Below are positions 13,986-38,036 of a stretch of 64,000 bases of DNA, piece by piece (position 1 is the stretch's first letter; the number at the start of each line of letters is the position of its first letter). The notes under the pieces were generated by a model. It was given only the letters and a program-made list of their open reading frames with translations. It did no database searches and had not been told where the DNA came from. The DNA comes from Betaproteobacteria bacterium. Lineage in GTDB: Bacteria > Pseudomonadota > Gammaproteobacteria > Burkholderiales > Casimicrobiaceae. A program made the position numbers and the translations under genes. The stretch is from assembly GCA_016192065.1 (NCBI GenBank), contig JACPUX010000067.1, forward strand, positions 1 to 64,000, in the 5' to 3' direction.

Positions 13986-14235
13986 GCTGACGATCTCCGC
14001 CAAGAATGCGGCATCACGCCGCCGACCTCCAACCCGGGGCGGCGATGCTTCTTTTATACCGCTCAAGCTTCAGTTTCATGTTAGCGCCGCGGACCGCCGA
14101 CCGCAACCACAAATACGGGTTACGGTTCCAGGCGCCAATCCTTTAGGTCACCACTTTGGGGGCTGGATTTTATTTGGTGGGAACCTTAGACTCAATGCTT
14201 GTTGCGGTGGGCCAAACCAAGAATGTGTTCCGGCC

Positions 14236-16479
14236 ATGATAATGCTACGCCTACTCTTGCTGATCCCTAATTTTCTCCTCGCCGTTTTCCTGGCACTGGG
14301 GTGCGCTGCCCCAGCGTACGCGAAGCCCGCTTCTTCAGGTGACGCGCCAGCGCGTGTCGCCTTGGTCATCGGCAACAACGATTATCAGCACGTCCCCAAG
14401 CTCACTAACGCGGTGCCCGATGCGAAGGTGATGGCTCAGGAGTTCCGCGCACTTGGTTTTGACGTGATCGAGAAGACCAATGTCGATCAGCGGAGCATGA
14501 AGGCTGCGGTGCGTGAATTTGTGAAGCGCATCGGTAACGGGGGCGTGGGCGCTTTTTTCTATGCCGGGCACGGGGTGCAGGACGGCGGCAACAATTTCTT
14601 GCTGCCGGTCGATATCGGCAAGTTGGGCGACCCGAGCGCCCTGCCCGACGATGCGATCGAACTCAACAGCGACGTCATGGGGCGCATTGGGCAGGCCGGG
14701 GCCAAGTTCTCGCTGCTGGTCATTGATGCTTGCCGCGACAACCCGTTTCCGCGCCGGGCGGGTCGTTCCGTCGGCGGCACGCGGGGTCTGACTGCCGCGC
14801 CCGAAACGCCTGAGGGCATGATCGTGGTCTACTCGGCCGGCGTCGGACAGCAGGCACTGGATCGCCTGGACGAAAGTGATCGCAGCCCGAATGGGTTGTT
14901 TACGCGCGAGTTCGTCGTCGAACTGCGCAAGCCGGGTCTCGAAGTCGCCGAAATGGTCCGCAATGTACGCCAAAGGGTTAAGGACGCCGCCGCCAAAGTG
15001 CAGCACGAGCAGACTCCAGCGATCTACATCCAGGCCGATCGCTTCTACCTGGTGGCGCCGCCACCGCTGCCGACGCCGCCGGTGCTGCCCAGCTCCGAAG
15101 ACGCTCTTTGGGCGCAACTCGATAGCGACAAGCCCTGCGAATACATGGCCTATCTTGAGGAGTATCCGGCCGGCAAGTTCGCTGCGCTGGCGCGAATTCG
15201 TGCGCGCGATTGCGTTCCTTCCAGCCGCCAGCCCCCGCGGGAAGCGGTGGCCATGGTCAAGCCGCCAGTGCCTCAGGCACGGCCTGTGGATCTGCCCGCC
15301 GCCGCGCCCGCGGAACTACCCACGCCTAAGGCGCCGGTTTCGACGTCCACCGCGGTCGCTCCAGACCCAAGACGGGAGGGCGAGACCGGCACGGTGAAGG
15401 TCACCCAGGAGCCGCCACGAGCGGCTACCGCTGCGGAGGTCCCGACCAAACCAGCCCTTCCATCGGAATCCGTGTCGGCGAGCAAGCCGGCCAAGACGGC
15501 CGCGGAGTCCCCCGCGCCGGCCAAGGTGGTGGCAGCGGCCCCCGCGACCACCAAGGGCAAGCCGGCTGCGACCACCGCGCCAAAGGGGAAGAGTGCACCG
15601 GCGGCGTTGTCGGGCCCGTTTTCCTCGGTACCGAGCCCACCCTCAGCCCAGACCAAGCGTGATGGGTCGGCGACGGTGTCGGCGAGTTCCTTCATCGAGC
15701 TCCCGCTCCCGTCGGAAATGAAAGCGGCGCCAGTGCTTGCTCCGCCGCCTCGTCCGTCCGCCGCTGCGGCCCGCAAAGACAGCCCACCGGCCAAGCCAGC
15801 GCAACTCGAAATCGTCGCGCCGGGGGCTGAAACCAATACGCAGCTCGCGATGCTCGCTCCCGCGAAGGACGCCATCCCCAGCGTCAGATCCAAGGGCGAA
15901 CCCGGCGATCAACCCGATCTCAGAATTGGCGATGCCTGGACGATGCAACGCCTCGATCTGTTCACCAAGAACGTGGTTGGCTCCTGGAGTGATCGTGTGC
16001 AGGCGCGCAGCGGGTCGAGCGCCAGGATTGAATCAACCAGCGCCGTGGGCCGGTCCTATTCCACTGGCCTGCTGGAACTCGATGTTTCGAGCTGGCGCAT
16101 CGAGAGCGCCCGGGTCGTCGAAGGCAAACCCATTCCACTGGCATTTCCGCTCGGGGTGGGCAAGACCTGGGAATACACCTACCGCCGCAAGCGCAACGAC
16201 GATGCCGGAATCACGACTTATTCGGTCAAAGCCCGGGTGGAAGGCCTGGAGAAGATCGAGACGCCGGCCGGCGTCTTCGAGGCCTTCAAGGTGGTCCACA
16301 AGAAGATCTACGAAACCTCGAGCGGCGGCAAGAACTGGTCCAGTTCGGCCGAGGAGATCTATTGGTATGCGCCGGATGCCCGCCGCTGGGTGCGCCACGA
16401 CCTCATCGACCGCACCAGTTCTGGCCGCATCGCCGACCAATACCGCGAAGAACTGGTCAAGCTGGAATTGCGCCCTTAG
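14236..16479 (+). CDS. Exported caspase-fold (peptidase C14) protein with C-terminal beta domain
   Basis: A 747-residue protein. Signal peptide 1-29 ends ...APAYA. Residues about 37-265 form a caspase-like p20 domain: ARVALVIGNNDY, catalytic His112 in FFYAGHGVQ, and Cys166 in VIDACRDNPF; both catalytic residues are present. A Pro/Ala/Lys-rich linker (about 290-550) leads to a beta-rich domain (about 560-747: RIGDAWTMQRLDLF, GVGKTWEYTYRR, IYWYAPDARRWVRHD) resembling DUF3108-like folds. Bacterial C14 proteins cleave after basic residues; its substrate is unknown. The start at 14236 gives the signal peptide; ATG 14242 is an alternative. Divergent from the RCC1 gene. Confidence 0.88.
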   Translation: MIMLRLLLLIPNFLLAVFLALGCAAPAYAKPASSGDAPARVALVIGNNDYQHVPKLTNAVPDAKVMAQEFRALGFDVIEKTNVDQRSMKAAVREFVKRIGNGGVGAFFYAGHGVQDGGNNFLLPVDIGKLGDPSALPDDAIELNSDVMGRIGQAGAKFSLLVIDACRDNPFPRRAGRSVGGTRGLTAAPETPEGMIVVYSAGVGQQALDRLDESDRSPNGLFTREFVVELRKPGLEVAEMVRNVRQRVKDAAAKVQHEQTPAIYIQADRFYLVAPPPLPTPPVLPSSEDALWAQLDSDKPCEYMAYLEEYPAGKFAALARIRARDCVPSSRQPPREAVAMVKPPVPQARPVDLPAAAPAELPTPKAPVSTSTAVAPDPRREGETGTVKVTQEPPRAATAAEVPTKPALPSESVSASKPAKTAAESPAPAKVVAAAPATTKGKPAATTAPKGKSAPAALSGPFSSVPSPPSAQTKRDGSATVSASSFIELPLPSEMKAAPVLAPPPRPSAAAARKDSPPAKPAQLEIVAPGAETNTQLAMLAPAKDAIPSVRSKGEPGDQPDLRIGDAWTMQRLDLFTKNVVGSWSDRVQARSGSSARIESTSAVGRSYSTGLLELDVSSWRIESARVVEGKPIPLAFPLGVGKTWEYTYRRKRNDDAGITTYSVKARVEGLEKIETPAGVFEAFKVVHKKIYETSSGGKNWSSSAEEIYWYAPDARRWVRHDLIDRTSSGRIADQYREELVKLELRP

Positions 16480-22478: not shown

Positions 22479-23174
22479 GTGTCGGGTGCGCGCAAAATCA
22501 AGATCCAGGCGTTTCTCGGCAATCTGCCTCTGTTCAACGATCTCGCCGTCGAGGAACTCGATCGGATCGCAAGGGGCACCTGCGAACAGCATCTCGAGCG
22601 CGGGCGGATGCTTTATCGCAAGGGCGATGCCAGCATCGGTCTCTACTGCGTGGTCTATGGCCAGGTCAAGCTGTCCTCCACCTCCGCGCAAGGTGATGAA
22701 AAGGTTGTCGAAATCATTGGCCCCGGGTCGAGTTTCGGCGAGGCGGTGATGTTCATGGAGAAGCCGCACATCCTCTACGCCCAGGCCCTCACCGACTCCC
22801 TGCTTCTGCAAGTTTCGCGGGCGGCGATTTTCGAGGAGATCGATCGTGACCCGGCCTTCGCGCGCAAACTCCTGGCGGGTTTGAGCCGGCGCCTCCATAG
22901 CCTGGTGAGCGATGTCGAGTGGTATTCCCTGCGGTCCGGAGTACAGCGGGTGATCGGATTCTTGCTGCGCCAGCCGCTGGAGATCGAGGCCGATGGCCAA
23001 GCCTATCGGCTCACACTGCCGACCAGCAAGAATGTGGTCGCCTCGCGGCTCAGTCTCACGCCGGAGCACTTTTCACGCATCCTGCATGAACTCTCCGAAT
23101 CCGGGCTGATCGCGGTAGACGGGCGCGAAGTCGAGCTTTTCGACGTCGAAAAGCTGCGCGCCCACCAAAGCTGA
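22479..23174 (+). CDS. Crp/Fnr-family regulator, DNR-like
   Basis: A 231-residue regulator with GTG start. Residues about 12-125 form a cyclic-nucleotide-type beta barrel (MLYRKGDASIGLYCVVYGQVKL, EIIGPGSSFGEAV). The C-terminal winged HTH has the recognition helix TPEHFSRILHEL, with the E..SR residues that read TTGA half-sites. It lacks the N-terminal Cys cluster of oxygen-sensing FNR, so it resembles the DNR/NNR type that senses NO through haem. FNR-type palindromes lie upstream of the nearby respiratory genes. The effector is inferred, not seen. Confidence 0.82.
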   Translation: MSGARKIKIQAFLGNLPLFNDLAVEELDRIARGTCEQHLERGRMLYRKGDASIGLYCVVYGQVKLSSTSAQGDEKVVEIIGPGSSFGEAVMFMEKPHILYAQALTDSLLLQVSRAAIFEEIDRDPAFARKLLAGLSRRLHSLVSDVEWYSLRSGVQRVIGFLLRQPLEIEADGQAYRLTLPTSKNVVASRLSLTPEHFSRILHELSESGLIAVDGREVELFDVEKLRAHQS

Positions 23175-23884: not shown

Positions 23885-24979
23885 TTAGCGCAAAGCGTGC
23901 AGGCACCACAGGGCGGCACTGAGTAGCAGCACCGCCCCGGCCTGATGGGCGGCGGCCAGGGCAACCGGAACGACCAGGAGCAGCGTGGTGATTCCCAGGC
24001 CGACTTGCAGCACCAAAGCGGCCAGCAGGAGATGCGTGGCCAGGCGCGCCCGGCCGCTGAGGGGCAGGCACTGGCTGCGCCACCAGAACCAGGGGACAAG
24101 CACAGCCAGTGCCCAGCCGAGCAGACGATGATCGAACTGCACCGTGGCCATGTTATTGAAGAAGTTGAGATACCAGGGATCGAGCAGAAACAGTTCGGGT
24201 GGTATCCAGTTTCCGTTCATGGTCGGAAAGGTATTGTAGGCAAAGCCCGCGCGGATGCCCGCGACCAGTCCGCCGCTCAGGATCATGACGAAGATCAGGC
24301 TGGCGAGTACACCCGCGAACCGTCTGACGCGCTCGACCTCGGGCGTGTCATGCGCCGCGGCCGGGCGCGGAAACAGCAGGCCCAGGGCCACCCAAAACAT
24401 GGCCGCATAGATCAGGATCGCCAAGCCCAAATGGGCGGTCAGACGATATTGGCTGACTCGGGGCTCATCGACCAAGCCACTCTTTACCATGTACCAGCCG
24501 AGGGCACCCTGCAATCCGCCCAGAACGAAGATGCCCAGCAGCTTCATCAACCATCCTTGGGGAATGCGTCGGCGCAGCGCGAAGTACACTAATGGCGCGA
24601 AATAGGCGAGACCAATCAAACGCCCGAGCAGACGATGGAAATACTCCCACCAGAAGATGCTCTTAAATTCCGCCAGGGACATGCCCAGATTGACCTTTTG
24701 GTACTCCGGGGTGAGCTGGTATTTCTGGAAGACCTCCAGCCACTGAACTTCTGTGAGTGGCGGGAGGGTACCCACCAGAGGTTGCCATTCCACGATCGAC
24801 AGACCCGAGTGCGTCAGTCGTGTGATGCCGCCCACCACCACCATGGCAAAAACCAGGGCGCAGCAGCAGAGGAGCCAAGTGGCGATCTGGCGCCGCGCGC
24901 GCGCGTCCGCCTGGTCCTGCGCGGCAAACACCGGCTGACCTCGCCCAAACGCGCTGCGATACATTTCGGGATCGGTCAT
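23885..24979 (-). CDS. ctaA: Heme A synthase, COX15 type
   Basis: A 364-residue protein with eight membrane helices that would hydroxylate haem O to haem A. The catalytic Glu112 and haem ligand His115 lie in [11 protein letters not shown]; other conserved histidines are in [19 protein letters not shown] and [10 protein letters not shown]. It has no Cys pairs, as usual for the COX15 subtype, and includes the loop with [18 protein letters not shown]. It is divergent from the ba3-like haem-copper genes and may serve them. All key residues are intact, in contrast to the second CtaA homologue at 37107. Confidence 0.92.
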
Positions 24980-25093: not shown

Positions 25094-25135
25094 TTGACGA
25101 GCATCAAACCATTTTTCTCGCGCTGCGGTTAAATT
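25094..25135 (+). promoter_or_regulatory. FNR/DNR-type promoter upstream of the ba3-like oxidase operon
   Basis: TTGACGAGCATCAA (25094-25107) matches the FNR consensus TTGAT-N4-ATCAA at nine of ten positions. A -10-like TAAATT lies at 25130-25135 in GGTTAAATTT. A start point near 25142 would place the palindrome centre at -41.5, the class II activator position. The site is about 115 bases from the divergent heme A synthase start and may affect it too. Found by eye; not tested. Confidence 0.6.
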
Positions 25136-25433: not shown

Positions 25434-25985
25434 ATGAGCGCCATACTGCCACCGGCAGCAAAGTATTGGTGGAAGCAACCACTGGATCGCGTCGAGGGGA
25501 CCTGGATCGTCATCGCCCTGACGTGGTGTCTGATTATGTTCTTCATGATGCCGTACTGGCATGTGTACGGTAAGCAAAACCTCTCCAACGAGGCCTATCG
25601 CACTACCCCCGAGGTCTACCAGAAGAAGACCCAGGAGATGGTCGATAAGTACACCGTCCGCAAGGAGACCGCCCAGGAAATCCCTGTGGTGCATCCGCCG
25701 GCGGGTTCCGACGTTTACCTGATCGCCCGGCTGTGGCAATGGTGGCCGATTCTGGAGTTGGAGGAAGGCAAGACCTATCGCCTGCACATCATGTCCATGG
25801 ACTGGCTGCACGGTTTCTCCCTGCAGCCCGAGAACATCAACATCGAAGTGCACCCCGGCTACGAGCACATCGTGACCATGACGCCGACCAAGGCGGACAA
25901 CTACTCGATCATCTGCAATGAGTTCTGCGGCGTCAATCATCACACGATGGCCAGCAAGCTCTACGTGGTCAAGTCCGCGAAATAA
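25434..25985 (+). CDS. Haem-copper oxidase subunit II with CuA site (NorS/CbaB-like)
   Basis: A 183-residue protein with one N-terminal membrane helix (about residues 25-45) and a cupredoxin domain outside the membrane. The CuA ligands are complete: Cys161, Glu163, Cys165, His169 and Met172 in CNEFCGVNHHTM, plus the upstream His in MDWLHGFSLQ. It would accept electrons from cytochrome c and pass them to subunit I. It is short, as in B-family (ba3) enzymes. In Nitrosomonas, norS-norY-senC has this order; a low-oxygen terminal oxidase is the alternative. Confidence 0.88.
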   Translation: MSAILPPAAKYWWKQPLDRVEGTWIVIALTWCLIMFFMMPYWHVYGKQNLSNEAYRTTPEVYQKKTQEMVDKYTVRKETAQEIPVVHPPAGSDVYLIARLWQWWPILELEEGKTYRLHIMSMDWLHGFSLQPENINIEVHPGYEHIVTMTPTKADNYSIICNEFCGVNHHTMASKLYVVKSAK

Positions 25986-25998
25986 GGGGGAGACGAAA

Positions 25999-27723
25999 AT
26001 GGCTGTCAATAGAATGTTCCGCGTCTGCCCGGCAACCGGTTTCAAGGTTCATGAGCCGGCGGAAGCGCTGATGAAGATCAATGCCGTCACCGCGGTGGTG
26101 GCCTTGCTGGTGGGCGGTATCCTCGCCCTGTTGGTCATCCTTACGCGCTGGCAGACGGTGCACTTGCTGCCGGCGGACGCCTTTTACATGGTGCTCACGG
26201 CGCACGGGCTCAACATGCTCGTGTTCTGGATCATCTTCTTTGAAGTCGCGGTGCTCTACTTCTGCGGCACGGTCTTGCTCAATAGCCGGCTGGCCACACC
26301 GACCTTTGCCTGGGTGGCCTACGCCCTGATGCTGATCGGTGCCCTGGTCAACAACTATGCGGTGATGATCCGTGGTGATTCAAGCGTGATGTTCACGTCC
26401 TATGTGCCCATGGGTGCGCACTGGAGCTTCTACCTTGGCTTGATCTTGTTCGCGGTCGGCGCCCTGATCGCCTGCTTCGTGTTTCTGGGCACGCTGGTGG
26501 TGGCCAAGGCGGAGCGCACCTACAACGGTTCGGTCTCGCTGGTGACCTTCGGCGCGCTGACCGCTTGTATTATCGCGGTCTTCACCATCGCCGCGGGCGC
26601 GATCATCCTGATTCCGACCTTCTTCTGGTCGATCGGGCTGATCAGCCACATCGACTCGCTGATGTACCGGACGGTGTGGTGGGGCTTTGGCCATTCTTCG
26701 CAACAGATCAACGTCTCGGCGCACGTCGCGGTCTGGTACGCCATCGCGGCGATCGTCTTCGGCGCCAAGCCGATGTCCGAGAAAGTCAGCCGCGGCGCGT
26801 TCCTGCTCTACATTCTGTTCCTGCAGCTCGCCTCCGCGCACCACTTGCTGGCCGACCCTGGTCTCACCTCGAACTGGAAGATCTTCAACACTTCGTATGC
26901 GATGTACCTCGCGGTGCTCGCCTCGATGGTGCATGGTCTGACGGTTCCCGGCGCGATCGAAGTGGCGCAGCGCGAGAAGGGCTTCAACAAGGGCCTGTTC
27001 GAGTGGCTGCGCAAAGCGCCCTGGGGTAACCCGGTGTTCTCCGGCATGTTCATTTCGCTGATCGGCTTCGGCTTCCTCGGCGGCATTTCCGGCGTGATGA
27101 TGGGTACCGAGCAATTGAACCTGATCATCCACAACACCATCTACGTCCCGGGCCATTTTCACGCGACCGTAGTGGTGGGTACGACCCTGGCGTTCATGTC
27201 GCTGACTTACTTCGTCATTCCGACGATCTTCCGGCGTGAACTGATGTTCCCCGGTCTCGCCAAGTGGCAACCCTACCTGTTCGGCTTGGGCATGTCCGGC
27301 TTCTCGCTGTTCATGATGGGTGCGGGCACCCTGGGTGTGCCGCGCCGCCACTGGGATATGTCCTTCGCCGGAGCGCTCATGCAGCACGAGTTCCCGGCCA
27401 CCGCCTGGCTGATGATGACCCTCATGGCCATCACCGGTCTGGTGGCCATCGTCGGCGGGGCCGCGTACCTGCTGATCACGGTGTGCTCGGTATTCATCGG
27501 CAAGAAGATCACCACGCCGGGCTTCAAGCACATCAGCGCCAGGGACAATGCCGCGGCGCCGGTGTCCTTGCCCAATGTGGTGGTGCCGTCGCACGGCAAC
27601 ATCGGTACCGCCGGCTTCGTCGCCCCGGGCACCTTTGTGCTGGCGATCGGCTTCCTGATCTCGTTCGTGCTCTACTACTTCGTCAACTGGAAGTACCTCT
27701 CCACGGTCTGGCCTCTCAATTAA
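25999..27723 (+). CDS. B-family haem-copper subunit I lacking the active-site Tyr (NorY/sNOR-like)
   Basis: A 574-residue membrane protein with about 13 helices. Metal ligands are present: low-spin haem His69 (TAHGLNM) and His388, high-spin haem His386 (GHFHATV), and CuB His232, His281, His282 (ASAHHLL). Their spacing matches Thermus ba3 oxidase. However, the helix-VI motif that normally reads HPxxY is HSSQQ (232-236), so the cross-linked tyrosine needed for O2 reduction is replaced by Gln. Such Tyr-less B-family enzymes are NO reductases (sNOR, CuA-NOR) in known cases. Ribosome site AAGGGGGA. Confidence 0.88.
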   Translation: MAVNRMFRVCPATGFKVHEPAEALMKINAVTAVVALLVGGILALLVILTRWQTVHLLPADAFYMVLTAHGLNMLVFWIIFFEVAVLYFCGTVLLNSRLATPTFAWVAYALMLIGALVNNYAVMIRGDSSVMFTSYVPMGAHWSFYLGLILFAVGALIACFVFLGTLVVAKAERTYNGSVSLVTFGALTACIIAVFTIAAGAIILIPTFFWSIGLISHIDSLMYRTVWWGFGHSSQQINVSAHVAVWYAIAAIVFGAKPMSEKVSRGAFLLYILFLQLASAHHLLADPGLTSNWKIFNTSYAMYLAVLASMVHGLTVPGAIEVAQREKGFNKGLFEWLRKAPWGNPVFSGMFISLIGFGFLGGISGVMMGTEQLNLIIHNTIYVPGHFHATVVVGTTLAFMSLTYFVIPTIFRRELMFPGLAKWQPYLFGLGMSGFSLFMMGAGTLGVPRRHWDMSFAGALMQHEFPATAWLMMTLMAITGLVAIVGGAAYLLITVCSVFIGKKITTPGFKHISARDNAAAPVSLPNVVVPSHGNIGTAGFVAPGTFVLAIGFLISFVLYYFVNWKYLSTVWPLN

Positions 27724-27834
27724 GCCGGTCCGGGTTGGCGGCGGCTCTTGGCGCGTGCTCGCACCAGGGTCGCCGCCCCTGATTTTTCAGCGTACCCGCC
27801 GGGCCGCCCCAAGGGCGCGTCAGCCAGTCGCCGG

Positions 27835-27883
27835 CGCGGGCGTAGCCCGCGAACCGCACGCACCCCCTTCCGGCGGAAGGGGG
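27835..27883 (+). repeat. Two tandem perfect hairpins between subunit I and senC
   Basis: Hairpin 1: CGCGGGC (27835-27841), loop GTA, GCCCGCG (27845-27851). Hairpin 2: CCCCCTTCC (27863-27871), loop GGC, GGAAGGGGG (27875-27883), followed by AATGGCGGGAAG. No U-run follows, so they do not form a standard terminator. They could stabilise or process the operon mRNA, or be an inserted intergenic repeat related to that near 5193. Confidence 0.6.
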
Positions 27884-27990
27884 AATGGCGGGAAGTCACA
27901 CCAGTGAGCGTTGCCGTGCCCCACCTGCTGCAATCCCTGAATCTCCCTGCGGCGCAGGCAATTTCGGAGTCCCTGCCTCGATACCCAGTC

Positions 27991-28833
27991 TTGAAGCGCC
28001 TCGTTCGGCTCCGCACTGCATGCCTCTGGCCCGGTTTGGCCCTTGCCCTCGCTGGCCTGGTGCTCTCCGTTCCGGCGCGGGCGCAGACTGCCCCAGCGCC
28101 CGGCGCTCTGGATCAAAAAGAAGCGTTCCGGCTCAGCCAGGCGGCGCTCGGCCGCATTCCTGGGGACTATGACTTTACCGATCGCCATGGGCGATCCGTT
28201 CGACTCTCCCAATTCCGCGGTAAGCCAGTTCTGGTGAGTTTTGTCTATACGGGTTGTTTTCAGGTCTGCCCGGTGACCACCAAGTTCCTCGCCCAGGCCG
28301 TTGCCAAGGCACAAAGCGCCCTTGGGCAAGACCTTTTTCAGGTGCTGACCATAGGTTTCAATCAACCCTTCGACAGCCCCGAGGCGATGCGCGACTTCGC
28401 GCTCAAGCAAGGCGTGGCACTGCCCGGTTGGGAATTTCTCAGCCCCGAGCCGCGCGCGGTTGAAGCGCTCACCCGGGAATTCGGCTTTGTCTATCAGCCG
28501 GCGGCGGGCGGTTTCGACCACCTCACCCAGTTGACCCTGCTCGATGCAGATGGGCGCATCGCCACCCAGATCTACGGCGAGACGTTTGAAGTCCAGATGC
28601 TCGTCGAGCCCCTCAAGACGCTGCTCGCGGGGGAGAGCGTACCGGTACGTGATCTTTCGGGATGGATCGAGCAAGTCCGCATTCTCTGCACCGTCTATGA
28701 TCCCGCTTCGGGCCGCTATCGGCTCAACTACGCCTTGTTCATCGAGATCTTCGCCGGGCTCACGGTGATCGGCTCGGTGGTCTATTATCTGGTCAACGAA
28801 CGTCGCCGACGCCGGCGCGTCACGCCGGCCTGA
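27991..28833 (+). CDS. senC: SCO1/SenC family copper chaperone
   Basis: A thioredoxin-fold protein. The copper motif is YTGCFQVCPVTT (CxxxCP) and the third ligand His is in GGFDHLTQLTLLD. A C-terminal membrane helix (YALFIEIFAGLTVIGSVVYYL) ends in an Arg-rich tail, an unusual extra anchor. SCO proteins load CuA, fitting the adjacent CuA subunit. The start is uncertain: TTG at 27991 gives a good signal peptide (MKRLVRLRTACLWPG...); GTG at 27904 is an alternative that would run closer to the hairpins. Confidence 0.85.
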   Translation: MKRLVRLRTACLWPGLALALAGLVLSVPARAQTAPAPGALDQKEAFRLSQAALGRIPGDYDFTDRHGRSVRLSQFRGKPVLVSFVYTGCFQVCPVTTKFLAQAVAKAQSALGQDLFQVLTIGFNQPFDSPEAMRDFALKQGVALPGWEFLSPEPRAVEALTREFGFVYQPAAGGFDHLTQLTLLDADGRIATQIYGETFEVQMLVEPLKTLLAGESVPVRDLSGWIEQVRILCTVYDPASGRYRLNYALFIEIFAGLTVIGSVVYYLVNERRRRRRVTPA

Positions 28834-28855: not shown

Positions 28856-29869
28856 ATGGCCAGCGTCAGCCGCATGGAACTCGTTTGCCCCGCCGGCAGC
28901 CTGCCGGCACTCAAGACCGCGGTGGATCATGGCGCCGACTGCGTGTACCTCGGCTTTCGTGACAACACCAACGCCCGCAACTTCAACGGGCTCAACTTTG
29001 GCCCCAGCGAGGCTGCTCTTGGCCTACGCTACGCCCATGAACGGGGCGCCAAGGTCTTCCTGGCGCTCAACACCTATGCGCAACCCGACCATTGGGACCG
29101 TTGGACCGCTGCGATCGACGCCGCTGCGCGCCTGGGTTTTGACGCCGTCATTCTGGCCGACCCCGGGCTCATGGCCTACGCCCAACGCCAGCATCCCGGG
29201 CTGCGGCTGCATCTGTCGGTGCAAGGTTCGGCCACCAACCATGAGGCCATCAATTTCTATCACGAGCGCTTCAACATCCAGCGTGCGGTATTGCCTCGGG
29301 TCTTGTCCATGGCCCAGGTGGAACAGGTAATCGGCAACACCCCGGTGGAGATCGAAGTCTTTGGCTTCGGCGGCTTGTGCGTCATGGTCGAAGGCCGATG
29401 TTCGCTTAGCTCCTACGTGACCGGCGATTCGCCCAATACCGTGGGGGTATGCTCGCCCGCCAAAGCGGTGCGCTGGCAGCAAACCCCACGGGGGCTGGAG
29501 AGCCGGCTCAACGGCATGCTCATCGATCGCTACGCCGAAGGCGAAAACGCCGGCTATCCCACCTTGTGCAAAGGCCGCTTCGAAGTGAACGATGAAACCT
29601 ACTACGCCATCGAAGAGCCGACCAGCCTCAACACCCTGGAGCTGCTTCCCGAACTGAAGCGCCTCGGCGTAGCGGCGATCAAGATCGAAGGACGGCAGCG
29701 TAGCCCGGCTTATGTCGCCAGCGTTACCCGGGTCTGGCGCGAGGCCATCGACCTATGCGCGCGCGACGATGCCCGCTATTCCGTGCGCCCGGCCTGGAAC
29801 GCCGAATTGGGAAAGGTCTCCGAAGGGCGGCAGACTACGCTGGGCGCCTACCACCGGCCCTGGAAATAG
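28856..29869 (+). CDS. ubiU: UbiU, O2-independent ubiquinone hydroxylation (peptidase U32 fold)
   Basis: A 337-residue U32-family protein. With UbiV it hydroxylates the ubiquinone precursor without O2, using prephenate as oxygen donor. The start of the fold (MELVCPAGSLPALKTAVDHG) and DNTNARNFNGLNF match UbiU. Four Fe-S cysteines are visible: GGLCVMVEGRCSL, VGVCSPAK and YPTLCKGRF. Ribosome site GGAACGGAG precedes ATG 28856; ATG 28874 is an alternative. It is followed by ubiV and ubiT and links this locus to anaerobic respiration. Confidence 0.93.
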   Translation: MASVSRMELVCPAGSLPALKTAVDHGADCVYLGFRDNTNARNFNGLNFGPSEAALGLRYAHERGAKVFLALNTYAQPDHWDRWTAAIDAAARLGFDAVILADPGLMAYAQRQHPGLRLHLSVQGSATNHEAINFYHERFNIQRAVLPRVLSMAQVEQVIGNTPVEIEVFGFGGLCVMVEGRCSLSSYVTGDSPNTVGVCSPAKAVRWQQTPRGLESRLNGMLIDRYAEGENAGYPTLCKGRFEVNDETYYAIEEPTSLNTLELLPELKRLGVAAIKIEGRQRSPAYVASVTRVWREAIDLCARDDARYSVRPAWNAELGKVSEGRQTTLGAYHRPWK

Positions 29870-29905
29870 CGGCGGCGATCGGCACCGTCTGGCCCGCGCG
29901 CAAGC

Positions 29906-30826
29906 ATGAAAATCTCTCTCGGCCCTCCGCTCTATTACTGGCCCAAGGCGACGGTGTTCGCTTTTTATGAAGAGGCCGCCACTTGGCCGTTCGAGATCGC
30001 GCATCTGGGCGAAGCGGTGTGTTCACGCCGCTGGCAATTGCGCTTTGCCGACTGGCTGGAGTTGGGCCGCAAGCTTGCCGCCGCCGGCAAGGAGGTGGTC
30101 CTCTCCTCGCAAGTGCTGATCGAAGGCGAAGCCGATCTCAAGTCCCTGCGCCGGTTGGTGGACAACGGCGAGTTCCTGGTTGAAGCCAACGATTTCGGTG
30201 CGGTGCGCCTGCTTTCCGGACGCCACCCTTTTGTCGCCGGCCCGCACCTCAATGTTTACAACGCGCCGACCCTGGACCTGCTGATCGAAGCGGGCGCCAA
30301 GCGCTGGGTGATGCCGTTGGAAATGTCCCAGGCGCACTTGCAGTCCTTGCAAAGCGCCTTGCACCAGGCGGTAGAGACCGAGGTGTTCGCCCTGGGGCGC
30401 ATGCCGCTCGCGTTCTCCGCCAGGTGTTTCACGGCCCGCCATTTCAACTTACAAAAAGACGATTGCCAGTTCCGCTGTATCGACTATCCCGATGGACTCG
30501 TCCTCGCCACGCGTGAGCACCAGGAATTTCTGGTCCTCAACGGCATTCAGACCCAATCGGCGCGCGTGTACAATCTGAGTGCCGAAACCGCGGCGATGCA
30601 GGCGAGCGGCGTGGATGTGTTTCGGATTTCGCCGCAGTCCAAGGGCAGCGGAGAATTGGTTGGATTGCTGCGTGGGCTGCTGGACGACCCGACCGCCGCG
30701 GCGCCGCGCCTCCAAGAAATCGCCGCGCTGCTTCCCGACCAAGGCTGCGACGGTTATTGGTATGGCCGACCCGGCCTGGATCAGGTGGCCTGCGCGAAAG
30801 CAACGGCGACCCCGGACCCGCACTGA
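29906..30826 (+). CDS. ubiV: UbiV, partner of UbiU
   Basis: A 306-residue protein forming the UbiU-UbiV complex. The N-terminus ([20 protein letters not shown]) and [16 protein letters not shown] match the family. The four [4Fe-4S] cysteines are in [20 protein letters not shown] and [11 protein letters not shown]. Needed for ubiquinone synthesis without oxygen. 36 bases separate it from ubiU, and ubiT starts 27 bases later. Confidence 0.93.
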
Positions 30827-30853
30827 TCGAGAATTCGTCGCATGGAGAAGACC

Positions 30854-31333
30854 ATGAACCTTGCCAAACCAGGTGGTTTTGCGATCCCGGCGCCGATCGG
30901 CGAGACCCTGGCGCGGCTGCCGCAGTTCCCGCCGTCCTTGGCCTTTGCTTTCGGACTCAACCTGGTCATTCGCCAATTGGCGAACTCGGAGAACTTGCGC
31001 TTGCTCCACGGCCGGACCATTCGCATCCAGGTCACCGATGCAGGGCTGAGCCTTACCTTCACCGTCGCCGCTGATGGCTTCAAACCGCTCTCCGGCGCGA
31101 CCCAGGCGGACGTGAGCCTAAGTGCCAAAGCCTATGATTTCGCCATTCTTGCCGCGCGTAAAGAAGACCCCGACACGCTTTTCTTTCATCGGCGCCTGCT
31201 CATCGAAGGCGACACCGAACTGGGCCTGCTGATCAAGAACACGCTCGATGCGCAAGAGCCGCCGAAATTCGGCCTGGGGATGCTGGCGCCGAGTCGAGTG
31301 CTGGGCGCCCTGCGCGCGACCCTGCGACCCTGA
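30854..31333 (+). CDS. ubiT: UbiT, SCP2-domain quinone biosynthesis factor
   Basis: A 159-residue SCP2-like lipid-binding protein. UbiT binds prenylated ubiquinone precursors for the UbiUV route. Seen: the hydrophobic SCP2 pattern (LSLTFTVAADGFKPL, DVSLSAKAYDFAILAA, LFFHRRLLIEGDTELGLL). ATG at 30854 has GGAG 7 bases upstream; ATG at 30842 is an alternative. Placement after ubiUV makes the assignment strong. Confidence 0.9.
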   Translation: MNLAKPGGFAIPAPIGETLARLPQFPPSLAFAFGLNLVIRQLANSENLRLLHGRTIRIQVTDAGLSLTFTVAADGFKPLSGATQADVSLSAKAYDFAILAARKEDPDTLFFHRRLLIEGDTELGLLIKNTLDAQEPPKFGLGMLAPSRVLGALRATLRP

Positions 31334-31493: not shown

Positions 31494-31555
31494 TTAAATC
31501 GGAGCGGTGGTTTGTTACCCTGAGACCATTGTCACGCTTCTCGGTACGAGTCACC

Positions 31556-33502
31556 ATGCTCCGAAAAATCCAGCGCGCCGGCCAGTGGCTGTTCATGCAC
31601 GTCGAGGGCCCTTTCAACCTAGCCTTTGGCAACCAGCTCAACCCCTTCTACTACCTCGGTGCGATCAGCTACTTTATGTTCTGGATCGTCGTGGTCAGCG
31701 GCTTGTATCTCTACATCTTTTTCAGCACCAGCGTCGAGGGGGCCTACGATTCGGTCGAAGCGATCACCCACGGGCAATGGTATTTCGGCGGCATCATGCG
31801 CAGTTTCCACCGCTACGCCTCCGACGGCATGGTGCTGACCATGGGGCTGCACCTGACGCGGCACTTCTTTTTTGATCACTATCGAGGCTTTCGCTGGTTT
31901 TCTTGGGTTTCCGGGGTAGTGCTGCTGTGGCTGGTCTATGCCTCGGGCATCAACGGGTTCATGCTGCCCTGGGACAGCACCGCGCAGTTCGTGGTGATCG
32001 CCACGGCGGAGTGGTTGGATGTGCTGCCAATGTTCAATGGCATCTTGATCCGCAACTTCATTTTCGAAGGGCAGGTGAACGACCGGCTGTTCTCGCTGCT
32101 TTCCTTCATCCATATCGGTTTTCCGCTGGGAGTGCTGGCGCTCCTGTGGGTGCACACGCAGCGTGTACCGCGGGCGAAAACCAACCCGCCGCTGCCGATC
32201 ATGCTCATGGTGATCACCACACTGGTGGTCCTGTCGCTGCTCAAGCCGGTGTTGAGCGGGCCGCGCGCCAATCTCGATGCCGCGCTACAACAAATCGATT
32301 TCGATTGGTTCTATCTGCCGGCCTATGCCCTGATCTACGAGCTCTCCCCGGCCAAGACCTGGATGATCGTCCTGGGGGCCTCGCTTTTTGTCCTGGTCCT
32401 GCCCTGGTTGCCGCCCAAGCGCCGCAGCGGTCCAAAGCAGGGCTTCCACCTTCTGGTGCAGCCCGATGACCGCATCATCGGCATTCGCGACGGCGAGACC
32501 GTGCTCGACGCCGCCCTGCGCGAAGGCGTGGCCCTGCCGTTCGATTGCCGCAACGGTGGCTGCAGCGAATGCAAATGCCGGCTCTTGCATGGCAAGGTCG
32601 ACTATGGCCCCCATCACCTGAGCGCGCTCTCCACGGTGGAGAAGTCGGCCGGCTATGTGCTCACCTGCTGCGCCACGGCGCTCTCCGACGTGGAAATCGT
32701 CTATGAACCACGCGCCGGAGTGGAACGGCCGCCGCTGCAAGTGCATACCGCGCGCGTCGAGCGCATGAACCGACTGAGCGAAGACGTGATGCAGATCTTC
32801 CTGCGCGTCGAGGGGGGCGCCAAAGTCAAGTACTACGCCGGGCAGTACATCAACATCCTGCTCGAAGACGGGCAGAAGCGCGCCTATTCCTTCGCCACCG
32901 CGCCGCATCACGACACCACCATCGAGTTGCAGATCCGGTACGTTCCAGGCGGCAAGTTCACCACTCAGGTCTTCGAGCACATGCAGGTCGGCGACATTGT
33001 TCGGTTCGAAGGCCCAGTGGGGTCCTTCTTCTTGCGTGAAGACAGCGTGAAACCGATCATTTTCGTGGCTGGCGCCACCGGCTTCGCGCCGGTGAAGAGC
33101 ATGCTCGAGTACGCCTTCGAAATCGGGCTCAAGCGCGAAATGTACCTCTATTGGGGCGTGCGCAAGCGCAAGGACTTGTACCTGCCCGATCTGCCCGAGC
33201 AATGGGCGAAGGACCACGCCAACTTTCATTTTATTCCGGTGCTTTCCGACGCCGGCCCCGAGGATGCCTGGACCGGTCGAAGTGGGCTGGTCCACGAGGC
33301 GATCCTGGCGGATTTCCCGGACCTGGGCGGCTATCAGGTCTATGCCTGCGGTTCGGTGGGTATGGTCGAGGCGGCAAAACCCGCCTTCCTGGCGCGCGGC
33401 ATGGTGCAGGACGACTGCTTCTCCGACGCGTTCAGGTTGGCGCCTCATCGCTCGGTGGATGCGCCGAGCGCCGACATGGTCAAGCTGGGGGGTCAGCAAT
33501 GA
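31556..33502 (+). CDS. Cytochrome b - [2Fe-2S] - ferredoxin reductase fusion
   Basis: A 648-residue three-part protein. Residues 1-285 are a cytochrome b6/b N-terminal domain with four core helices; His85/His99 and His186/His200 (spacing 14 each) bind two haems. Residues about 298-385 are a plant-type [2Fe-2S] ferredoxin (Cys331, Cys336, Cys339, then TCC near 374). The rest is a flavin reductase: RAYSFATAP binds FAD, IIFVAGATGFAP and YACGSVGMVEAA bind NAD(P)H. It could carry electrons from NAD(P)H into membrane haems or quinone. It heads an operon ending in a gNOR-like enzyme; its stop overlaps the next start. Confidence 0.9.
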   Translation: MLRKIQRAGQWLFMHVEGPFNLAFGNQLNPFYYLGAISYFMFWIVVVSGLYLYIFFSTSVEGAYDSVEAITHGQWYFGGIMRSFHRYASDGMVLTMGLHLTRHFFFDHYRGFRWFSWVSGVVLLWLVYASGINGFMLPWDSTAQFVVIATAEWLDVLPMFNGILIRNFIFEGQVNDRLFSLLSFIHIGFPLGVLALLWVHTQRVPRAKTNPPLPIMLMVITTLVVLSLLKPVLSGPRANLDAALQQIDFDWFYLPAYALIYELSPAKTWMIVLGASLFVLVLPWLPPKRRSGPKQGFHLLVQPDDRIIGIRDGETVLDAALREGVALPFDCRNGGCSECKCRLLHGKVDYGPHHLSALSTVEKSAGYVLTCCATALSDVEIVYEPRAGVERPPLQVHTARVERMNRLSEDVMQIFLRVEGGAKVKYYAGQYINILLEDGQKRAYSFATAPHHDTTIELQIRYVPGGKFTTQVFEHMQVGDIVRFEGPVGSFFLREDSVKPIIFVAGATGFAPVKSMLEYAFEIGLKREMYLYWGVRKRKDLYLPDLPEQWAKDHANFHFIPVLSDAGPEDAWTGRSGLVHEAILADFPDLGGYQVYACGSVGMVEAAKPAFLARGMVQDDCFSDAFRLAPHRSVDAPSADMVKLGGQQ

Positions 33503-34005
33503 AAACGGTGCTTCGGTATCTTGCGCAAGCCGTGTTGTACGGCGCCTTCTTCGCCTTCGTGGGGTATTTCTCGACCTCGCCGCGCTTCGAGCATCTCAGG
33601 CCTGATGAGGCACTGATCCGCATTTCTTTCAGCCACGCTGCGCAACGCGTCGGCGAATGCCGCGAGCGCAGCGACGAGGAACTCGCCAAGCTCGCGCCCA
33701 ACATGCGTTTGCGCACCGTCTGTCCCCGTGAACGCGCGCCCGTGCTACTGGAAATCGACATGGACGGCAAACCGCTCTACAAGCTCACGGCGCAGCCCAC
33801 CGGCCTGCAAAAGGACGGGCAGTCGACGGTCTATCGCCGCCTGACCGTCAAGTCCGGGCAGCGCCATTTCGCGGCACGGCTCTCCGACCACAGTTCGGGC
33901 GTTATCGGCTACACCAAGGAGTTCAGCATCGACCTCGCACCGGGCAAGGTCATGGTGCTCGACTTCAATGCCGCGCAGGGCGGTTTCATCATTCACCAGG
34001 GTTGA
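33499..34005 (+). CDS. Anchored periplasmic protein of unknown function in the gNOR-like operon
   Basis: A 168-residue protein translationally coupled to the cytochrome b fusion (ATGA overlap). One N-terminal membrane helix (about residues 8-25) is followed by a soluble beta-rich domain with two cysteines (VGECRERSD and LRTVCPRER) and a hydrophobic C-terminal half (GKVMVLDFNAAQGGFIIHQG). No family is recognised. Context suggests an accessory or assembly factor for the operon's redox complex. Confidence 0.65.
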   Translation: MKTVLRYLAQAVLYGAFFAFVGYFSTSPRFEHLRPDEALIRISFSHAAQRVGECRERSDEELAKLAPNMRLRTVCPRERAPVLLEIDMDGKPLYKLTAQPTGLQKDGQSTVYRRLTVKSGQRHFAARLSDHSSGVIGYTKEFSIDLAPGKVMVLDFNAAQGGFIIHQG

Positions 34006-34101: not shown

Positions 34102-35730
34102 ATGCCCTCCATCCTCTTGAACCCTCGCGCGAGCAGCGTGCCCCGTTGGCTGATACCAGCGGAGCGCGCGGTGGCGGGCATCGAGGCGCTCTTTGATCGA
34201 GCCTTCGGTTCGGCCGAGAATCCACTGCATCAACTCGGGGCGCTTTCCTTCTACCTCTTCTGGATCGTCGCCGCCAGCGGCATTTATGTCTATGCCTTCT
34301 TCGACACCTCGGTGGCGGGGGCTTACCGTTCGGTGGAGGCGCTCACCCACCAGCAGTGGTACTTGGGCGGAGTCATGCGCAGCTTGCATCGCTACGGCTC
34401 GGACGCCTTCGTGCTCACCATGGCGGCACACTTGCTGCGTGAATTCGTCAAGGGTCGCTGGCATGGCTTTCGCTGGTTCTCCTGGCTCACCGGAGTGCCA
34501 CTGATCTGGCTGGTCTATGCCTCGGGGCTGGGCGGCTACTGGCTGGTCTGGGACGAATTGGCGCAGTTCTCGGTCATCGCCACGGCGGAGTGGCTTGATT
34601 GGCTGCCCATTTTTGGCGAGCCGATCGTGCACAATTTCATCGGCCGCGGCGCCACCACGGACCGCTTTTTCTCGCTCTTGATCTTTCTGCACATCGGCAT
34701 TCCGCTGCTGCTGCTCCTGCTGATGTGGATTCACATCTACCGCTTGAGCCACGCCCGCACCAACCCCACCAGGCAACTGGGCCTGGCGGTGTTCGCGGCG
34801 CTCCTGTTGCTGTCCTTGTTCAAGCCGGCGCTGAGCGGCGGCCCAGCCAACCTCGATGCGGTGTCGTCCGCGCTCGACTTGGACTGGATCTACATGTTCG
34901 CCCATCCGCTGATGTACCTGCGCTCGCCAGGTTTTCTGTGGGTCGCCACGGCGGGGTTCACGCTGCTGCTCGCGCTCCTGCCCCTGCTGCCGCGGCCGCG
35001 ACCCGAACCCAAGGCGGAAGTGGATCTCGACCATTGCAACGGTTGCTCGCGTTGTTTCGACGACTGTCCCTATGTCGCAATTACCATGGTGCCACGCAGC
35101 GACGGCGCGCCCCATTTGCGGCAAGCCCAGGTGGACCCTGAGCTGTGCGCCAGTTGCGGCATATGCGCGGGCGCCTGCCCGTCCTCCACGCCGTTCCGCA
35201 CTCAAGCCCAGCTGAAAACGGGCATCGATTTGCCCAGGAATTCGGTGCAGGCCTTGCGTGCTAAACTCGAAGCGGCCTTGGAGGAACTGGCGGGAGCTGC
35301 GCCGGTCGTGGTGTTCGGCTGTGATCACGCGGTACCGGTGACCGCCTTGTGCGCGACCAATACGGCATGCATCAGCCTGCCGTGCGCGGGGATGCTGCCG
35401 CCCTCCTTCGTTGACTACGCCCTGCGCAATGGGGCCGACGGGGTGTTGGTCACCGGCTGTGGCGCGGGCAATTGCAACTTCCGCCTGGGCAACCAGTGGC
35501 TGGTGGAAAGACTGGAAGGCAAACGCGAGCCGCGTCTGCGCCCGGCGGTGGACCGGGAGAGGGTGCGCGTGGAGTGGTTCGACCGTCATCAGGGTGCGGA
35601 ACTGAGCGGGGCTTTGGCCCAGTTTCGGGCGGCGCTGCCGGCGCGCCCCCTGGCCCCAGAAGGGCGGGAGATGTTCTGGAAAGAACGCCGAAAAACCGAG
35701 GAACCCGGGCGCGATGAGTCGAGCGACTGA
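34102..35730 (+). CDS. Cytochrome b - 2x[4Fe-4S] - MvhD-like fusion
   Basis: A 542-residue protein. Residues 1-290 are a cytochrome b domain paralogous to that at 31556 (His96 in SLHRYGSD, His110, then FLHIGIP and WIHIYRL). Two [4Fe-4S] motifs follow: CNGCSRCFDDCP from Cys312 and CASCGICAGACP. Residues about 405-490 resemble MvhD/FlpD (VVVFGCDHA, CISLPCAGMLPPSF, GVLVTGCGAGNCNFRLGNQW), the subunit that links hydrogenase or formate/NADH modules to heterodisulfide reductase. It overlaps the next gene by 17 bases, so it probably delivers electrons to that enzyme. Confidence 0.88.
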   Translation: MPSILLNPRASSVPRWLIPAERAVAGIEALFDRAFGSAENPLHQLGALSFYLFWIVAASGIYVYAFFDTSVAGAYRSVEALTHQQWYLGGVMRSLHRYGSDAFVLTMAAHLLREFVKGRWHGFRWFSWLTGVPLIWLVYASGLGGYWLVWDELAQFSVIATAEWLDWLPIFGEPIVHNFIGRGATTDRFFSLLIFLHIGIPLLLLLLMWIHIYRLSHARTNPTRQLGLAVFAALLLLSLFKPALSGGPANLDAVSSALDLDWIYMFAHPLMYLRSPGFLWVATAGFTLLLALLPLLPRPRPEPKAEVDLDHCNGCSRCFDDCPYVAITMVPRSDGAPHLRQAQVDPELCASCGICAGACPSSTPFRTQAQLKTGIDLPRNSVQALRAKLEAALEELAGAAPVVVFGCDHAVPVTALCATNTACISLPCAGMLPPSFVDYALRNGADGVLVTGCGAGNCNFRLGNQWLVERLEGKREPRLRPAVDRERVRVEWFDRHQGAELSGALAQFRAALPARPLAPEGREMFWKERRKTEEPGRDESSD

Positions 35731-37117
35731 ATCATTGAACACTACCGCGGCGCGGCCGCCCACGGGGCTCCTGGGAGGGCTGGCCGTGCCCGATGATGAA
35801 CGGCGGGGGCTCGCCCGGGCTTGGCTGGGTTTGGGGGTCTTCGCCCTGATCGCCTCGGGCGTGTTCTCGGTCTTGCTGGTGCTCTCGCGTACCCCGCAGG
35901 TGGCCAAGCTGATGCCGTTGACGGACTTCTTTCACGTCGCTTTGGTCGTACACGTCGATCTTTCGGTGCTGGTGTGGTTTTTGGCTTTTGCCGGGGCGCT
36001 TTGGAGCCTGCATGGTCCGCCGGTGTTGCTGCGTCTGGGGCGTGCCGCACTCGCCTTGGCTCTGGCGGGTACCGCAATCATGGTGCTGGCGCCGTTCTTC
36101 GGCGGCGGCGGTCCCTTGATGGCCAATTACATACCGGTCCTCGATGAACCGATGTTCCTTTCCGGCCTGGCGGCATTCGGTCTGGGCATCGCGCTCTTGG
36201 TGTTGCGCACCATGGCGACCGCTGTCCTGACAGCGGGGCGCGGCGCCGCCGGTTTCGGGCTCGAGGCCGCGGTACTGGCCACTGCCATCGCCCTGGCGGC
36301 CTTGGTCTGGTCCTATGTCAGCTTGCCGCGTTTCATCACCGGCAAGGACTACTACGAGCTGCTCTTCTGGGGCGGCGGGCATGCCTTGCAGTTCACCTAC
36401 GCACTGTTGATGCTGGTGGCCTGGTTGGTTCTTGCCCAGGCGATCGACGCGCCCCTGGCGCTGCCCGAGCGGGTGACCAAGCTGCTGTTTGTCCTGGGGG
36501 TGGGACCGGTGCTGCTGGTTCCGGGCGTCTATATCCTGCACGATGTGCGTTCCGGCGAGTTTCGCGGCTTGATGACCTGGCTGATGCAATTCGGTGGCGC
36601 CCTGCCCATGGCGCCCTTCATGCTCGCCGCTGGCTGGTCGTGTTGGCGGGCGCGTCGCCTGGGAGGGCGAGCGCGGCCGCTGCATGCGGCGCTGCTCGCA
36701 TCACTGGCGCTCTTTTCGGTGGGTGGCGTATTCGGGCTGCTAATCACGGAAAGCAGCACGCTCATTCCGGCGCATTACCACGGTTCGATCGTCGGAGTGA
36801 CTCTGGCCCTGATGGGGCTCGCCTATTACCTGTTGCCGCGTTTAGGCTACGCCGCCCCCGATTCCCGCGCCGCCGCTTGGCAACCCCTGGTCTATGCCGC
36901 CGGACAACTGCTGCACATCGGCGGCCTGGCTTGGGCGGGCGGGCATGGTGCGCAGCGCAAGGTGGCCGACGCGGTCGCCGGCGTCGCTTCTCTGGAACAC
37001 CAGATCGCCATGGGGGTAATGGGCCTGGGCGGCCTGATCGCGATCATCGGTGGCCTGCTCTTCTTGATCATCGTGTTGCGCGCGGTTCTCGCGCCCAAGC
37101 GTTGCGATGTCGCCTGA
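35714..37117 (+). CDS. Haem-copper superfamily subunit I with a His-Asp metal site (gNOR-like)
   Basis: A 467-residue membrane protein with about 12 helices. Visible ligands: low-spin haem His80 (VVHVDLSVLVWF) and His356, high-spin haem His354 (PAHYHGSIVG), non-haem metal His223 (GGGHALQFTY) and His276. Where oxidases have a second adjacent His, this protein has Asp277 (ILHDVRSGE). No HPxxY tyrosine is at the usual place; Gln226 is nearby. The His/His/Asp site is described for the gNOR family of predicted NO reductases. There is no cytochrome c subunit gene; the fused cytochrome b/Fe-S proteins are the likely donors. Confidence 0.85.
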   Translation: MSRATESLNTTAARPPTGLLGGLAVPDDERRGLARAWLGLGVFALIASGVFSVLLVLSRTPQVAKLMPLTDFFHVALVVHVDLSVLVWFLAFAGALWSLHGPPVLLRLGRAALALALAGTAIMVLAPFFGGGGPLMANYIPVLDEPMFLSGLAAFGLGIALLVLRTMATAVLTAGRGAAGFGLEAAVLATAIALAALVWSYVSLPRFITGKDYYELLFWGGGHALQFTYALLMLVAWLVLAQAIDAPLALPERVTKLLFVLGVGPVLLVPGVYILHDVRSGEFRGLMTWLMQFGGALPMAPFMLAAGWSCWRARRLGGRARPLHAALLASLALFSVGGVFGLLITESSTLIPAHYHGSIVGVTLALMGLAYYLLPRLGYAAPDSRAAAWQPLVYAAGQLLHIGGLAWAGGHGAQRKVADAVAGVASLEHQIAMGVMGLGGLIAIIGGLLFLIIVLRAVLAPKRCDVA

Positions 37118-38036
37118 GTTTGCCGCCACTTTTGGGCTCCAGCGGCGCCTGGCGACCGGATGCGCACTCCTGGTGCTGGTGGTGGTGGCCGCAAGCGCCT
37201 ACTTGCGTCTGGGACAGGCTGGTTTTTCCTGCGCCGATTGGCCGGCCTGTTTTGGCCGCATCGAGATCAACCAGCAGACCTTGGCACTGGAGCCGTTGGT
37301 CTTCTGGGCGCGGGTGGCGCATCGCCTTGCCGCCATGGGCGTCGCTGTGCTGGTGCTGAGTCTGGTGGTCCTGGGTTATCGTCAGCGCCGGGAGGACGCA
37401 CGCTCGTTGCGCCTGGCGCTCCTCGCCCTGAGCCTCACGCTCTTCCTGGCGGTACTGGGAAGGTGGACTCCCGGCACACGGGTGCCGGCCGTTACCCTGG
37501 GCAATCTCCTGGGTGGCTTTATGCTCCTGGCTGCGCTCTGGCGGTTGCGCGCCGCTCCCTCGGTCAGGCGGCAGGCGCATCCGGCGCGGGGCCTGCTCCT
37601 CCTTTGCGCGGTGCTCCTGGCCGGGCAGGTGGCACTGGGCGGGATGGTGAGCGCCAGCTTCGCCGGTCCAAGCTGCCCCGGATTTCCCGGCTGCGGGCCA
37701 CAAGGCATGGAAGTGCGTGCCGAACTCTTCAATCCGTTTCGCAGCATCGCGCTTGACGCCGCGGGCGTGGCCGAGCGGCCCGCGGGTCTGGCCGGGCTGG
37801 TGGTGGCCCACCGCTTACTCGCCCTGATCTTAAGCGTGGCGCTCCTGAGTCTAGCCTGGCGCTTGTGGCAAGCTCCCCGCCCGGAACGCGGCCTGGCCGT
37901 GCGACTGTTGGTCTTAATCGGCCTGGCTTATGGGCTGGGCGTTGCCACCGCGCTCACGGCGCCGCCCCTGGGGTTGGTGTTTGGGCACAATTTCGTCGCC
38001 GCCCTGTTGGTTCTGACCCTGGCGGACGCCGCCTGA
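37107..38036 (+). CDS. CtaA-like protein with degenerate active site
   Basis: A 309-residue eight-helix protein of the CtaA/COX15 family. The Cys pairs typical of CtaA are kept (Cys42/Cys48 in FSCADWPACFG; PSCPGFPGCG). But the catalytic Glu three residues before the first haem His is Arg69 (ARVAHR, His72), and the second haem His of the N-terminal half is Asn133 (TLGNLLGG). The C-terminal half keeps both His (VAHRLLAL, FGHNFVA). It is unlikely to make haem A and may be an assembly or electron-transfer factor. It overlaps the gNOR-like gene by 11 bases. Confidence 0.85.
   Translation: MSPEFAATFGLQRRLATGCALLVLVVVAASAYLRLGQAGFSCADWPACFGRIEINQQTLALEPLVFWARVAHRLAAMGVAVLVLSLVVLGYRQRREDARSLRLALLALSLTLFLAVLGRWTPGTRVPAVTLGNLLGGFMLLAALWRLRAAPSVRRQAHPARGLLLLCAVLLAGQVALGGMVSASFAGPSCPGFPGCGPQGMEVRAELFNPFRSIALDAAGVAERPAGLAGLVVAHRLLALILSVALLSLAWRLWQAPRPERGLAVRLLVLIGLAYGLGVATALTAPPLGLVFGHNFVAALLVLTLADAA

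Follow-up and report, generated by a model that had tools for sequence, protein, structure and literature searches.

HCO2, the protein encoded at positions 35714-37117 of the window (the whole 64,000-nucleotide stretch of DNA analysed here), is probably a CuB-less, two-haem partner of the system around a second haem-copper enzyme of the same locus, HCO1 (25999-27723), acting in electron transfer or haem maturation, and not an NO reductase itself. From sequence comparison we give this reading a probability of about 0.58. It draws on a single alignment register recovered in three profile settings, on the lability of His276 and Asp277, as against CuB ligands that are fully conserved in HCO1, on the absence of the helix-VII histidine pair throughout a clade placed on one strongly supported branch, and on the faster divergence of HCO2 relative to HCO1. 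It also draws on gene context, namely the co-occurrence of HCO1 and HCO2, the linkage of HCO2 to a cytochrome b/4Fe-4S/FlpD gene and the presence of CtaA, DUF420 or CcsA beside its distant relatives. The genes concerned are the following, with the evidence for each in brackets.

23885..24979, minus strand: CtaA1, canonical haem A synthase (PF02628, 381 bits)
25434..25985, plus strand: NorS-like subunit II with the CuA motif CNEFCGVNHHTM (COX2 match; sequence)
25999..27723, plus strand: HCO1, haem-copper subunit I related to the B family, CuB and haem ligands all present (conservation; PDB ba3 matches)
27748..28833, plus strand: SCO1/SenC copper chaperone (PF02630)
28856..31333, plus strand: ubiU-ubiV-ubiT, O2-independent ubiquinone synthesis, inserted within the HCO1/HCO2 cluster (NCBIfam)
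31529..33502, plus strand: cytochrome b with 2Fe-2S ferredoxin and FAD/NAD reductase domains (Pfam; conserved His94, 108, 195, 209)
33499..34005, plus strand: X168, small protein with an N-terminal TM helix and an Ig-like beta sandwich, no recognisable cupredoxin (model pLDDT 96)
34102..35730, plus strand: cytochrome b (four His, two-haem type) with two 4Fe-4S motifs and a FlpD domain, overlapping HCO2 (Pfam; conserved His96, 110, 197, 211; adjacency)
35714..37117, plus strand: HCO2, homologue of haem-copper subunit I (467 aa) in which the helix-VII CuB histidines are missing (PF00115, 93-row alignment, profile alignment, AlphaFold2 model)
37107..38036, plus strand: CtaA2, divergent haem A synthase-like protein, overlapping HCO2 (PF02628; residue conservation)

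The HCO2 reading frame called by the first-pass annotation is genuine: it runs open from ATG to TGA and is conserved among 93 homologues that could be aligned. Its first 17 nt are shared with the upstream cytochrome b/4Fe-4S fusion gene, and its last 11 nt with the COX15/CtaA-like gene. The protein scores 48 bits against PF00115 (COX1; cut-off 34.8), and its AlphaFold2 model (pLDDT 84, pTM 0.88) has the haem-copper subunit I fold, with a B-family ba3 oxidase ranked first by Foldseek (TM 0.74) and VIA-align Z scores of about 29-31 against many haem-copper subunits I. Searches of PDB sequences with HCO2, singly or as a profile, gave no match to it; no NCBIfam model matched, nor did tblastn against the plasmid collection. 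The COX1 fold and the haem-ligand histidines of helices II and X (His80, His354 and His356, present in 93/93) identify HCO2 as a haem-copper subunit I homologue, the second one in the locus, as that annotation had stated.

The same annotation proposed that His276 and Asp277 replace the three-histidine CuB site. These residues, as well as His223 and Gln226, do stand at the positions that it named, and the replacement itself is not borne out. Five residues (His80, His223, Gln226, His354 and His356) are invariant in all 93 homologues, and the same is seen in a set of 13 near homologues. At position 276, by comparison, 49 of the 93 have Tyr, 25 His and 18 Trp or Phe; Asp277 occurs in 55 and the His276-Asp277 pair in only 16. 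On an HCO2 tree built with these two columns left out, at least 13 changes are needed for His276, 18 for Asp277 and 10 for the pair. The three sites that matter are as follows.

36380..36391, plus strand: His223 to Gln226 in helix VI (codons 223-226), His223 being the one CuB ligand kept (93/93; aligned with His235/Gln238 of HCO1)
36527..36532, plus strand: Val272-Tyr273 (codons 272-273), in the place of the helix-VII CuB histidines (profile alignment; Tyr273 in 92/93)
36539..36544, plus strand: His276-Asp277 (codons 276-277), proposed ligands, variable and in the loop after the CuB pair (conservation, tree, profile alignment)

Simple MAFFT alignment to HCO1 and the A and C types leaves the helix-VII register unsettled. 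The register used here was obtained by aligning a profile of the HCO2 clade to one of HCO1 and two ba3 sequences (profile-profile alignment), and it was identical under all three settings. In it, every haem ligand of HCO2 matches HCO1 and ba3, His223 and Gln226 fall on His235 and Gln238 of HCO1, and Val272 and Tyr273 fall on the two CuB histidines of helix VII. His276-Asp277 lie on Ala288-Asp289 of the HCO1 motif HHLLADPG (HHQFADPG in ba3), that is, in the conserved-Asp loop. The AlphaFold2 model agrees with this register, the helix ending at residue 275, a loop spanning 276-280 and the next helix starting at 281. Helix VI reads H-A-L-Q-F, the i+4 residue being Phe227 in 92 of the 93 homologues; from the set that marks a catalytic member, the helix-VI histidine plus the helix-VII pair, His223 alone aligns. 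The lability of His276 and Asp277 and their alignment to a loop together indicate that the His/His/Asp site was most likely a misreading, through mis-registration. With the haem ligands kept and the helix-VII pair replaced, HCO2 on this register belongs to a haem-copper lineage that has no CuB site. By alignment it keeps the low-spin haem ligands His80 and His356 and the second-haem ligand His354, and of the three CuB ligands only His223; the Val272/Tyr273 replacements are, on the same alignments, fixed across a large clade. We infer that no other metal is bound at the second-haem site.

The fold and all haem ligands of HCO2 align with those of ba3 oxidase (B family; PDB 1xme/4g71), whereas HCO2 lacks the two helix-VII CuB histidines and has Phe227 at the Tyr position. 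The cNOR enzyme (NorBC) likewise shares the haem-copper fold (4xyd_A, Z 29.9), but HCO2 has no NorC, no helix-VI Glu and no FeB histidine pair. The lack of a norC-like partner had been noted from the start and is upheld, as no CxxCH motif occurs in the 13 genes examined between 22.5 and 38.0 kb and it is the cytochrome b/4Fe-4S fusion that overlaps HCO2. The sNOR/eNOR-type enzymes of norSY-senC loci, represented here by HCO1, are homologous to HCO2 (24% identity in the profile alignment), are encoded in one locus with it and have the helix-VI His-x-x-Gln in common; unlike HCO2, HCO1 has a full CuB site, a CuA subunit and far higher conservation. Its CuB histidines are fully conserved among 63 HCO1 sequences, in every aligned relative that covers them, and it matches PDB ba3 oxidases with E values of about 1e-46 to 1e-48. 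The genome encodes four COX1 homologues, namely an A-type and a cbb3-type enzyme (both typed from sequence), HCO1 and HCO2, together with cytochrome cd1-type (nirS) and nosZ-type genes. At 89% completeness, it yielded no nirK over the cut-off and no cNOR or qNOR, although a missed NOR is possible. Because nirS and nosZ occur with neither cNOR nor qNOR, and the CuB ligands of HCO1 are intact, HCO1 is probably the NO reductase of this genome.

The first-pass annotation had instead taken HCO2 for a gNOR with an unusual metal. The gNOR enzymes (NorGH) of Sulfurimonas, Persephonella and Ca. Methylomirabilis are quinone-linked, non-cytochrome-c NO reductases with an active-site Asp (PMC8906906, PMC8756737), the diagnostic being an Asp at a position occupied by Tyr in oxidases, Glu in cNOR and Gln in eNOR (Table A4, PMC8756737). 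In Ca. Methylomirabilis oxyfera the gNOR is listed as Damo_1118-1119 (PMC6094997). An HCO2 of this type, in which the cytochrome b/Fe-S fusions would feed a non-haem metal bound by two His and an Asp, would suit the locus of a denitrifier without cNOR or qNOR, and His276 and Asp277 are present in the window protein; the kinship with B-family-type enzymes that is claimed for gNOR (PMC11388526) holds for HCO2 as well. We nevertheless consider it unlikely, since both residues are unconserved among homologues and align with the loop that follows the CuB pair, and since HCO1, with its intact site and CuA subunit, is already available as an NO reductase. No cupredoxin subunit II of its own, as expected of the gNOR type, adjoins HCO2 in its clade: NorS adjoins HCO1, and X168 is Ig-like. 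At the diagnostic position, for which Table A4 (PMC8756737) leaves the alignment column unstated, HCO2 homologues have Phe227 (92/93) if the helix-VI i+4 residue is meant, or else Asp277 (55/93). Judged against published descriptions of gNOR, from which it is set apart by this diagnostic and by its adjacent genes, HCO2 does not look like a gNOR, its Asp being neither conserved nor, probably, at a ligand position, and the assignment is not supported. No sequence that could stand in for gNOR was among the matches listed from a PF00115 scan of 110 genomes, which were the strongest ones, of A and C type.

Gene context was examined in 80 HCO2 loci from genome records, mainly of Beta- and Gammaproteobacteria (including Comamonas, Ramlibacter, Simplicispira and Thiogranum). 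In 66 of them, no more than 1.2 kb separates HCO2 from the cytochrome b-4Fe4S-FlpD gene, so that the tie to the cytochrome b/Fe-S fusions, first suggested from the window, is confirmed as a conserved link. X168 is found in 72 loci, the cytochrome b-2Fe2S-FNR gene in 55 and HCO1 (>300 bits) in 62, many of the remaining loci being cut by contig ends; HCO2 has no HCO1 nearby in some (L030, L074, L080). Among 60 relatives of the source genome, ten carry both HCO1 and HCO2, as does the source genome itself, while one carries HCO1 alone and one HCO2 alone, both of these being incomplete assemblies. In the same relatives, identity to the window proteins is 71-91% for HCO1 and 49-77% for HCO2, which is thus the faster-diverging of the two.

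A tree that included HCO1, ba3, A-type and C-type sequences groups HCO2 with all of its distant relatives on a single branch (support 100, length 3.1; a quick method, with long branches present), and the helix-VII histidine pair is absent from every distant member. Genome searches were made within Pseudomonadota, the phylum of the window: 38 of 249 sampled genomes had a match, and a score gap with nothing in it separates the HCO2 clade from HCO1-type enzymes. In one group of these distant relatives, which are without HCO1, CtaA adjoins the HCO2 relative in 7/7 loci, five of which also encode a CuA-type subunit, a finding as compatible with an enzyme as with a carrier. At locus L149, the relative adjoins DUF420 (CtaM-like) and a CuA-type subunit. 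In a group fused or linked to TPR repeats, CcsA adjoins in 10/11 loci, mostly with ResB and an 11-haem cytochrome. These (L150-L160) form a gammaproteobacterial-type locus in which the CuB-less protein, CcsA and ResB are accompanied by an MtrC-like 11-haem cytochrome and an NHL protein. Known haem A and oxidase assembly factors comprise CtaA, CtaB, CtaM/DUF420 and Surf1; HCO2 relatives adjoin CtaA in one clade and DUF420 in another, and the window HCO2 overlaps a CtaA-like gene. Unlike HCO2, none of the assembly factors in a recent review is a subunit I homologue (PMC9145763). We tentatively suggest that this widespread CuB-less clade could be a general redox or haem-maturation partner, with one branch serving B-type NO-reductase systems that have cytochrome b/Fe-S fusions, one found next to haem A synthase, and one, TPR-fused or TPR-linked, standing beside CcsA/ResB and an 11-haem cytochrome. 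No description of the HCO2 locus was found in the literature searched; the clade may already have a name, for example the poorly described nNOR.

The wider clade also bears on whether HCO2 could reduce or sense NO at its second haem alone, with Gln226 and Tyr273 lining the pocket and no non-haem metal. His354, His223, Gln226 and Tyr273 are invariant or nearly so in the clade around the window protein, and the cluster holds denitrification-type genes. To our knowledge, however, all established NO reductases of the haem-copper superfamily use a second metal, and Tyr273 is not retained in the wider clade, part of which sits with haem-maturation and not NO genes, making this reading quite improbable. 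A shifted metal site in which His223 would be joined by two helix-VII residues, Glu282 and His283, present in 88/93 and 86/93 homologues, is very unlikely, as the window HCO2 itself has Phe at 283 and both positions align with Asn295/Trp296 of HCO1, well past the CuB pair.

Other genes of the window deserve brief mention. CtaA2 keeps three haem-ligand-type histidines and two Cys pairs; its family has Asn133 at the expected fourth-histidine position and, at -3 relative to the first histidine, mostly Arg, versus Glu in canonical CtaA, and judging by these residues it may lack haem A synthase activity. X168 was considered as a cupredoxin subunit II and rejected, its model best matching Ig-like domains (HGSNAT, Z 10), with no cupredoxin match in Pfam. 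This unannotated, TM-anchored protein has two invariant Cys and follows either cytochrome b fusion, with two copies in L025, L031 and L104. The ubiU-ubiV-ubiT genes lie downstream of the HCO1/HCO2 cluster in seven related loci. A Crp/Fnr-family regulator is encoded at 22479-23174, and an FNR/DNR-like box, TTGACGAGCATCAA, with one mismatch lies at 25094-25107, upstream of norS. Across loci such boxes are modestly enriched upstream of norS and the cytochrome b genes (8-11 of 57-70 loci versus about 3% background), and the same scan found none upstream of HCO2. By eye, 10218-14066 (minus strand) encodes a protein with RCC1-like repeats (AWG..GQLGDG), and the adjacent 13849-16479 (plus strand) one with a caspase-like domain (FFYAGHG motif).

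Lacking CuB or FeB, HCO2 would be no standard NO or O2 reductase; as a CuB-less partner it would be a two-haem membrane redox protein of the system around HCO1, which has the CuA subunit and the intact CuB site. As its linkage to the cytochrome b-4Fe4S-FlpD gene is conserved, it could reasonably draw its electrons from NAD(P)H, Fe-S centres or quinol. Electrons would come in through the FNR fusion, with NAD(P)H as donor, or through the FlpD fusion, with ferredoxin or a heterodisulfide-type partner as donor, and reach the two-haem cytochrome b modules, whose four histidines are kept, before HCO2. HCO2 might then relay electrons from these fusions (NAD(P)H, ferredoxin or quinol) within the membrane toward HCO1; alternatively, HCO2 and the CtaA-like protein might supply reductant for haem processing. 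His223 may be a direct ligand of the second haem. The gene linkages and residues are seen directly in the sequences; the direction of electron flow, the formation of a complex and the haem coordination are inferred.

Sequence is the main basis on which haem-copper proteins are divided into oxygen and NO reductases. In denitrification surveys, a common clade that has both haems and no metal site could be counted by mistake among the NO reductases. The HCO2 clade would be a naturally CuB-less form of one of the most thoroughly studied enzymes. If HCO2 acts in electron delivery or haem maturation, it would bear on the electron supply of unusual NO reductases and on the source of reductant for haem A synthase, both of which are testable in cultured relatives possessing the locus, for example Comamonas granuli and Simplicispira hankyongi.
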